Source of the DNA: Geothrix terrae
Lineage (GTDB): Bacteria; Acidobacteriota; Holophagae; Holophagales; Holophagaceae
Assembly (NCBI RefSeq): GCF_022808775.1
Contig: NZ_JAKZLA010000004.1
Location: 62,001 to 126,000 of the forward strand
Reading direction: 5' to 3'
Length of the DNA stretch: 64,000 nucleotides
This document shows positions 40,421-41,642 of the stretch, one piece after another. Below the pieces are notes generated by a model that did no database searches, was not told where the DNA came from, and saw nothing but the letters and a program-made list of their open reading frames with translations. Both the position numbers and the translations under genes were made by a program. Within the stretch, counting starts at the first letter, position 1. Each line of letters starts with the position of its first letter.

Positions 40421-40903
40421 ATGGGGATCTTTGAGGGCCACATCCGCGTCCACGACGGCGACCGTTTCGCGCTGGTGGCCTCGCGTTGGAACGACTTCAT
40501 CGTGGACCGCCTCATCGAGGGCGCGAAGGACTGCATCCTCCGCCACGGCGGCACCGATGACCAGATGGACCTCATCCGCGTCCCCGGGAGCTTCGAGCTG
40601 CCCCAGGCGGCCAAGCTGGCGGCCCAGAGCGGCCGCTACGCCGGCGTCATCGTGCTGGGCTCGGTGATCCGGGGCGGCACCCCCCACTTCGACATGATCG
40701 CCGCCGAGGTCACCAAGGGCGCCGCCCAGGTGGCCCTGGACACGGGCCTGCCGCTGTCCTTCGGCGTGCTGACCACCGACAGCGTGGAGCAGGCCATCGA
40801 CCGGGCCGGGGCCAAGATGGGCAACAAGGGCTGGGAGGCCGCCCAGAGCGTCCTCGAGATGGCCGACCTCGCGCACACCCTCAAGGGTTCGAAGGGAAAG
40901 TAG
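40421..40903 (+). CDS. ribH: 6,7-dimethyl-8-ribityllumazine synthase
   Basis: Penultimate step of riboflavin synthesis: condenses 5-amino-6-ribitylaminouracil with 3,4-dihydroxybutanone phosphate; forms icosahedral or pentameric shells. The 160 residues show [46 protein letters not shown] (catalytic His), [18 protein letters not shown] and the C-terminal [15 protein letters not shown]. Its TAG stop at 40901-40903 is the first three bases of an inverted-repeat element that separates it from nusB. No FMN riboswitch is seen in the short leader. Confidence 0.96.
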
Positions 40904-41173
40904 GACCTGCCTTCAAATTGGGGCGCGTCCGCGCAAGTGGCGCCGCCCAAGCGAGACAAGGAAAGCGACGATGGCCATAGCGGCACTATTGACGAGGAGC
41001 TTGACGCGGTATCGCGCCGGGCGCCGCCACTTGCCCTCCGGGACAAGGCCAGCCGCACCCCTGGCTACGTTGGCGGCCTTGAACGATGTGCCGCATCGCC
41101 CTGCGGCCGCCGCCTGCCCAGGTGCGCGGCTGGCCGCCGTCGCGGGCACGTCCCAATTTGAAGGCAGGTCCTA
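40901..41173. mobile_element. MITE-like element with 22-bp perfect terminal inverted repeats, inserted between ribH and nusB
   Basis: The ends 40901-40922 and 41152-41173 are perfect inverted repeats, TA followed by GGACCTGCCTTCAAATTGGG on each strand; similarity continues inward for 11 nt with 8 matches. It is 273 bp, too small for a transposase. TA at both ends is consistent with a TA target-site duplication as for IS630/mariner-type elements. Internally there are two further dyads: 40934-40948 with 41019-41033 (14 of 15 pairs), and 41047-41056 region with 41126-41135 region. Open frames inside it are short and unconvincing. Removing it joins AAG-TAG-ATG, giving ribH stop next to nusB start. 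Confidence 0.8.
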
Positions 41174-41174
41174 G

Positions 41175-41642
41175 ATGGGTGTTCGCCGCCGGGGGCGCGA
41201 GTACGCCCTTCAGATGCTGTACGCCATGGACCTCACCGGCTACCAGCCGGACCAGGTGTTCGCCGGGTTCTACGCCATCCAGGACTTGAACCGGGATGCC
41301 TTCTACTATGCCCGGCGCCTGGTGGACGGCGTGTACGGCCACCTGGAGGAGATCGATGATGTGCTGGCCAAATACGCCGAGCACTGGAAGATCCACCGCA
41401 TGGCGGCCGTGGACCGCAACCTGTTGCGCCTGGGGCTCTTCGAGCTGATGTACGTCAAGGAAGTGCCCTTCCCCATCGTCATCAACGAGGCCCTGGAGAT
41501 CGTGAAGGAATTCAGCGACCAGGAAGGCACGCAATTCCTCAACGGCATCCTGGATGCCGCGCGCAAAGAATTCCGCCCCGAAGAAACCGGCCCCCGGCTG
41601 CGCAAGAAAACCGTGGCCGCCGATCCCCCGGATGAATCGTGA
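41175..41642 (+). CDS. nusB: Transcription antitermination factor NusB
   Basis: Binds boxA RNA with NusE/S10 for antitermination of rRNA operons. The 155-residue all-helical protein has RRRGREYALQMLYAMDLTG at the N-terminus, VDRNLLRLGLFELMY and PFPIVINEALEIVKEFSD near the middle and GTQFLNGILDAARKEFRP at the end (each typical). The Lys-rich C-terminal tail is extra. ATG at 41175 lies 1 nt after the terminal repeat, so its Shine-Dalgarno (AAGGCAGG) comes from the mobile element. ribH-nusB adjacency is common in bacteria. Confidence 0.95.
   Translation: MGVRRRGREYALQMLYAMDLTGYQPDQVFAGFYAIQDLNRDAFYYARRLVDGVYGHLEEIDDVLAKYAEHWKIHRMAAVDRNLLRLGLFELMYVKEVPFPIVINEALEIVKEFSDQEGTQFLNGILDAARKEFRPEETGPRLRKKTVAADPPDES

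Follow-up and report, generated by a model that had tools for sequence, protein, structure and literature searches.

A mobile, structured MITE with insertion sequence-like ends and a conserved folded core between ribH and nusB of Geothrix terrae

The ribH-nusB junction and its insertion

In the 64-kb window, i.e., the whole stretch of Geothrix terrae DNA that was analyzed, the gene for 6,7-dimethyl-8-ribityllumazine synthase (ribH; PF00885, E 4e-53) is separated from nusB (PF01029, E 5e-32) by a GC-rich non-coding element with inverted ends. A sequence-only reading of this locus had described a 273-bp element with perfect 22-bp terminal repeats; the span holds, and the element proper measures 269 bp (40903-41171), the TA pair around it being a target duplication, with the site reading AAG-TA-[269 bp]-TA-GATG. 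The perfect repeat and its extension by 8 matches in the next 11 nt are both present (arms 40901-40933 and 41141-41173; 30 of 33 pairs, 91%). The features of the locus are the following:

40421-40903, forward: ribH, 6,7-dimethyl-8-ribityllumazine synthase (Pfam PF00885, sequence)
40901-40903, forward: ribH stop codon TAG, formed by the target TA and the first G of the element
40901-40902, no strand: TA target-site duplication, left copy (empty site AAGTAG-ATG in 29 relatives)
40903-41171, forward: element, 269 bp, terminal inverted repeat (TIR) class A, non-coding (R1 covariance model; absent from relatives)
40903-40922, forward: left TIR GGACCTGCCTTCAAATTGGG, class A, class consensus GGGYCTGTTTTCAAAGTGG (sequence)
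40933-41034, forward: fold arm 1, element positions 33-134 (covarying pairs)
40959-40961, forward: arm 1 AGG, unpaired, invariant, mirroring CCT at 41113-41115
40982-40983, forward: arm 1 apical-loop GG, invariant, mirroring CC at 41091-41092
41004-41006, forward: arm 1 ACG, unpaired, conserved (A and C invariant), mirroring CGT at 41068-41070
41034-41042, forward: CCC...GGG mini-hairpin, invariant, at the arm junction; extra hairpin inserts lie here in ~339-nt copies
41042-41141, forward: fold arm 2, element positions 142-241 (covarying pairs)
41068-41070, forward: arm 2 CGT, counterpart of arm 1 ACG
41091-41092, forward: arm 2 CC, counterpart of arm 1 GG
41113-41115, forward: arm 2 CCT, counterpart of arm 1 AGG
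41152-41171, reverse: right TIR, same sequence on the other strand (sequence)
41172-41173, no strand: TA target-site duplication, right copy (empty sites in relatives)
41175-41642, forward: nusB, directly downstream of the element (Pfam PF01029; in relatives its ATG abuts the ribH stop)

Neither a promoter-like nor a terminator-like site is predicted in the window copy. As had been noted from the sequence, it lacks a coding frame: no frame is conserved across copies and none is open in most of them. Within the window, the 20-mer of the repeat occurs at these two sites only, even with up to 3 mismatches (shuffled expectation 0.00), and the exact 20-mer is found just at the same two places in the whole 3.43-Mb genome. 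The suggestion that further copies could be located through this 20-bp repeat is accordingly borne out not for the exact 20-mer, which is unique, but for the element as a whole, which is multicopy both in this genome and in its congeners.

The ribH-nusB junction could be read in 29 relatives, the nearest of which have a 98-99% identical NusB, and it is uninterrupted in every one of them, with the TAG of ribH directly followed by the ATG of nusB. The insertion is therefore private to the window genome among the genomes examined and is accompanied by a 2-bp duplication of TA, in agreement with the TA observed at both edges. Thus, the element is far from being single-copy and positionally fixed across relatives, and the window copy is a recent mobile insertion. 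With G as its first base, the element gives ribH back its TAG stop codon. Elsewhere, in three Geothrix genomes (L004, L005 and L007), one and the same insertion site is apparently occupied in three species, which points to vertical inheritance of some older copies, whereas the window copy is recent.

Distribution, terminal classes and partner insertion sequences

BLAST identifies diverged copies in the genome itself and in the majority of 36 congeners. R1, a covariance model trained on 28 copies from Geothrix, scores the window copy at 280 bits (E 5e-73). It finds the family in 41 of 47 genomes of the genus and in 37 of 199 sampled Acidobacteriota genomes, representing 21 of 119 genera; outside the family, E-values go down to 1e-46 and the matches are nearly always full length. 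At least 10 unique places with the element are listed for the window genome; copy numbers per genome are upper values because the match counts include antisense matches to the same copy. The typical length is nearly constant at ~270 nt, full-length copies dominate, and the flanking genes vary. A pattern scan of named genomes gave matches only in Holophagaceae/Acidobacteria records. Plasmids yielded no match, phages a single trivial match of 47 bp, and none of the 15 viral contigs with the core pattern carries the full element. No Rfam 15 covariance model matches at the gathering score, and a search of the open-access literature found no description of such an element. The family appears to be phylum-wide and undescribed. 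In another Acidobacteriota genome, a fluoride riboswitch (RF01734, 58 bits; L119:1356-1416) lies directly beside a copy.

The comparison of insertion sites used heuristic gene calls and 39 different sites that have flanking sequence and clean TA boundaries. The insertion falls exactly in a stop codon at 26 of the 39; the corresponding counts are 15 of 119 for background YTAR sites and 32 of 1377 for TA sites. Since the element begins with G, TA followed by this G again reads TAG. Two probable contributors to this preference are the availability of targets in a GC-rich genome and selection against the disruption of genes.

At least 11 TIR classes are found on the common core, the outer 16-20 bp being the part shared with autonomous insertion sequences (IS) of the genus. 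Of 57 copies with class A ends (GGGYCTGTTTTCAAAG), 35 have TA at either edge. Duplications of 3 bp, usually TNA, mark 15 of 37 copies of class B (GAGTGCCTAACAAAAC) and 5 of 8 of class P, which comes from outside Geothrix; some class C copies show a TA duplication. On a tree built from the core only, at least 19 changes of end class are required for 12 labels (class A being split in two), the minimum possible being 11. Class C is nested within a B/E clade (95-96% support) and also forms a separate, distant clade (100%). The left and right ends switch together. The ends of B and E are alike, and part of the switches between them could be drift.

For several classes, autonomous partners were identified. 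Class A ends match an 861-bp IS5-family element with CTA and TAG on its two sides, present in many copies in another genome (G019), and class B ends a ~869-bp IS5 element (L050) with a 3-bp TTA duplication, with one mismatch at one end and three at the other. The class C partner is a 1537-bp IS1182-family element (L056; NF033551, 383 bits), and a 1618-bp DUF772 element (L068) is an approximate partner of class F. Together with the empty orthologous sites, these matching autonomous elements uphold the earlier proposal of a non-autonomous TIR element that targets and duplicates TA. The expected full-length, transposase-bearing partner exists in G019 and is missing from the element's own genome, where neither PF01609 nor NF033580 has a match and none of the partner IS is found; the helper there is absent, lost or unassembled. 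Another IS5-family element (824 bp; L072, G033:C337), with ends GGGCCTGTTAACACTA, has no structured non-autonomous partner that we could see. An integron attC-like origin of the class B ends (GCCTAAC/GTTAGGC) was considered and dropped, given that the duplications and the matching IS5 element explain these ends.

The folded core and the nature of its conservation

The predicted fold is strong (z -8.6). RNAalifold yields 74 pairs, 53 of them with two-sided changes, and another Watson-Crick pair also occurs at 82 of the 98 predicted pairs that are alike on both strands. Alignment A4 is fitted to the model; for the cross-genus test, the Geothrix-derived structure was placed instead on a sequence-only alignment of 20 non-Geothrix copies and the window copy. 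In this alignment, the structure is 90.8% paired (81.1% after shuffling, 36-44% when the structure is slid), with 45 two-sided pairs compared with 21.7 in shuffled alignments, and on four of five measures none of 500 shuffles reaches the observed value. Conservation of the interior at the level of a structural RNA had been named in the sequence-only reading as an argument against a transposable element; such conservation, with covariation, is indeed found, and yet the element is mobile. Copies of ~339-399 nt, such as L036/L144 (G000:C7:371098-371436), carry a GC-rich, hairpin-rich insert of at least ~66 nt between the arms, in place of the small CCC..GGG hairpin region.

Among 88 copies, 21 of the 71 unpaired core positions are at least 95% conserved, most strongly A59 G60 G61, G82 G83 and A104 C105; mirrored about the center (p+q=274), these fall exactly on C213 C214 T215, C191 C192 and G169 T170. 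The mirror-paired loop bases are exact complements. Across the center, 54% of the unpaired positions are complementary, compared with 22-35% in any other register tried, whereas stem positions give no mirror signal (36% vs 24-39%). Hence arm 2 is the reverse complement of arm 1 in its loop motifs and not in its stems. This loop dyad can be read in two ways, as the same recognition motif presented on either strand or as two arms that dock via their loops.

The mismatches bear on the molecule under selection. Where the core pairs well, the ratio of G·T to A·C mismatches is 52:55 (27:25 among representatives); on sequence alignments it is 29:29 and 21:23. A control set of 30 RNase P RNAs from Acidobacteriota, treated identically, yields 25:6, so the procedure can detect selection on RNA; the tolerance of G·U over A·C in helices that characterizes single-strand structured RNA is not observed in the element. 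The equal rarity of both mismatches implies that pairing is kept strand-symmetrically, at the DNA level or on both strands. Overall, we lean toward a core that works at the DNA level or on both strands.

Selection on an RNA from both strands, after insertion in either orientation, might likewise make G·T and A·C equally frequent. The core might then act as RNA on either strand within operons, limiting polarity (e.g., through Rho loading) or setting RNase III cleavage, and pairing would be needed on both strands because copies lie in both orientations inside operons. The location of copies at gene ends inside operons, as at ribH-nusB, and the lack of a terminator-like signal in the window copy fit this possibility. 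When mismatches are oriented by the direction of the flanking genes, which were called heuristically, the G·U:A·C ratio is 52:42, a small skew. On balance, we consider such a role rather improbable.

It is likewise unlikely that this is an ordinary MITE in which complementarity is kept by a mutational process only, namely template switching between the arms, and the core has no selected function. Equal rarity of the two mismatches and the concerted change of both ends would fit such a process, but the stem interruptions, with their invariant unpaired bases, are kept across genera rather than corrected to perfect palindromes, and the length is nearly constant although much shorter forms occur. 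These short forms, of class A and devoid of the core, comprise six exact elements of 51-53 bp, one of them in the window genome, and a 50-bp near-match (L344 at G000:C7:372945-372996, L155-L159 and L343). They keep both TIR/subterminal stems and have lost the two arms. Their junctions, of several kinds, fall near the hairpin base, and the forms look like products of hairpin deletion by slippage. The existence of these 50-53-bp copies means that the core is not strictly needed for persistence; even so, full-length copies dominate, which suggests that carrying the core is worth its cost.

Very improbable, too, is a regulatory RNA (leader, riboswitch or sRNA) that is structured and has inverted repeats at its sides by chance: the strong fold, deep covariation and invariant loop residues would suit it, but it is at odds with the lack of an Rfam match, the dispersed copies with target duplications and varying flanking genes, and the absence of the G·U preference seen in RNase P, and the junction is empty in all readable relatives, which largely rules out a conserved RNA leader. 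Finally, the IS630/Tc1-mariner type to which the sequence-only reading had assigned the element shares the TA duplication but can hardly be correct, given that the TIR-matched autonomous elements encode transposases of the IS5 (DUF4096 and DDE_Tnp_1, NF033580) and IS1182 (NF033551) families and that related copies give 3-bp TNA duplications.

A proposed mode of propagation and relation to known systems

We conclude that the element is almost certainly a mobile, structured MITE. A non-autonomous, IS-mobilized element combining IS-like ends with a folded core is, with high probability, the best explanation of the observations as a whole, and mobilization in trans by the IS5 and IS1182 families appears very likely from the sequences of the ends. 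In sequence terms, the element consists of two modules, the IS-like outer ends and a conserved core of ~220 nt predicted to fold into a pair of hairpin arms, with the TIR stem closing them. Judging from the ends, duplications and partners, a resident IS5- or IS1182-family transposase would cut and insert the element in trans, and core lineages would survive the loss of one helper by taking on ends that fit another. The conserved fold suggests that what is selected in the core is a folded nucleic acid rather than a coding sequence; a candidate form is a strand-symmetric DNA hairpin or cruciform recognized by a protein, or a pair of arms docking through their loops. Given the symmetric mismatches and the mirror reverse-complement loops, the folded unit most likely functions alike on whichever strand is extruded or transcribed. 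The benefit might lie in harmless insertion at gene ends, where the leading G restores TAG, and in full-length copies being better retained or transposed. Taken together, we tentatively propose a selfish folded DNA module that is phylum-wide and derived from no single IS, strand-symmetric with loops that may dock, that takes the ends of whichever IS5 or IS1182 elements are available, and that inserts in stop codons and restores them. The element offers a testable system for the role of hairpin structure in DDE transposition or in tolerance inside operons, and the R1 model could reveal relatives elsewhere.

Compared with known systems, the element resembles IS5-family elements in its 17-18-bp ends, its TA duplication and CTAG/TTAA targets (class A) and its TNA duplication (class B), but unlike them it has no transposase and its interior is unrelated to IS. 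The IS5 subgroups with TA or TNA duplications are IS427 and IS1031. RAYT enzymes recognize REPs as folded single strands. REPINs and REP elements are small, mobile, palindromic extragenic DNAs, and REPs, at 20-40 bp and without DDE-type TIRs and TA duplication, differ from the element (PMC3116915, PMC3733652). The Correia, ERIC/RU and Chunjie elements are, like it, palindromic MITEs, mostly intergenic (PMC10969869). No single structured core that is common to unrelated TIR classes is known for them. Type II bacterial MITEs are shorter than 500 bp and have TIRs, a target duplication, similarity to IS at the ends only and transcripts predicted to fold, all of which applies to the element as well; unlike these AT-rich MITEs, it is GC-rich, its core is conserved phylum-wide with covariation, and its ends vary across several IS families (PMC10969869). 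In the usual account, a MITE is the decaying remnant of a single IS and its interior is meaningless. Here it is the interior that is conserved and the ends that are swapped, suggesting a hyper-parasite not bound to one helper and implying that a folded core, of DNA or RNA, is under selection.
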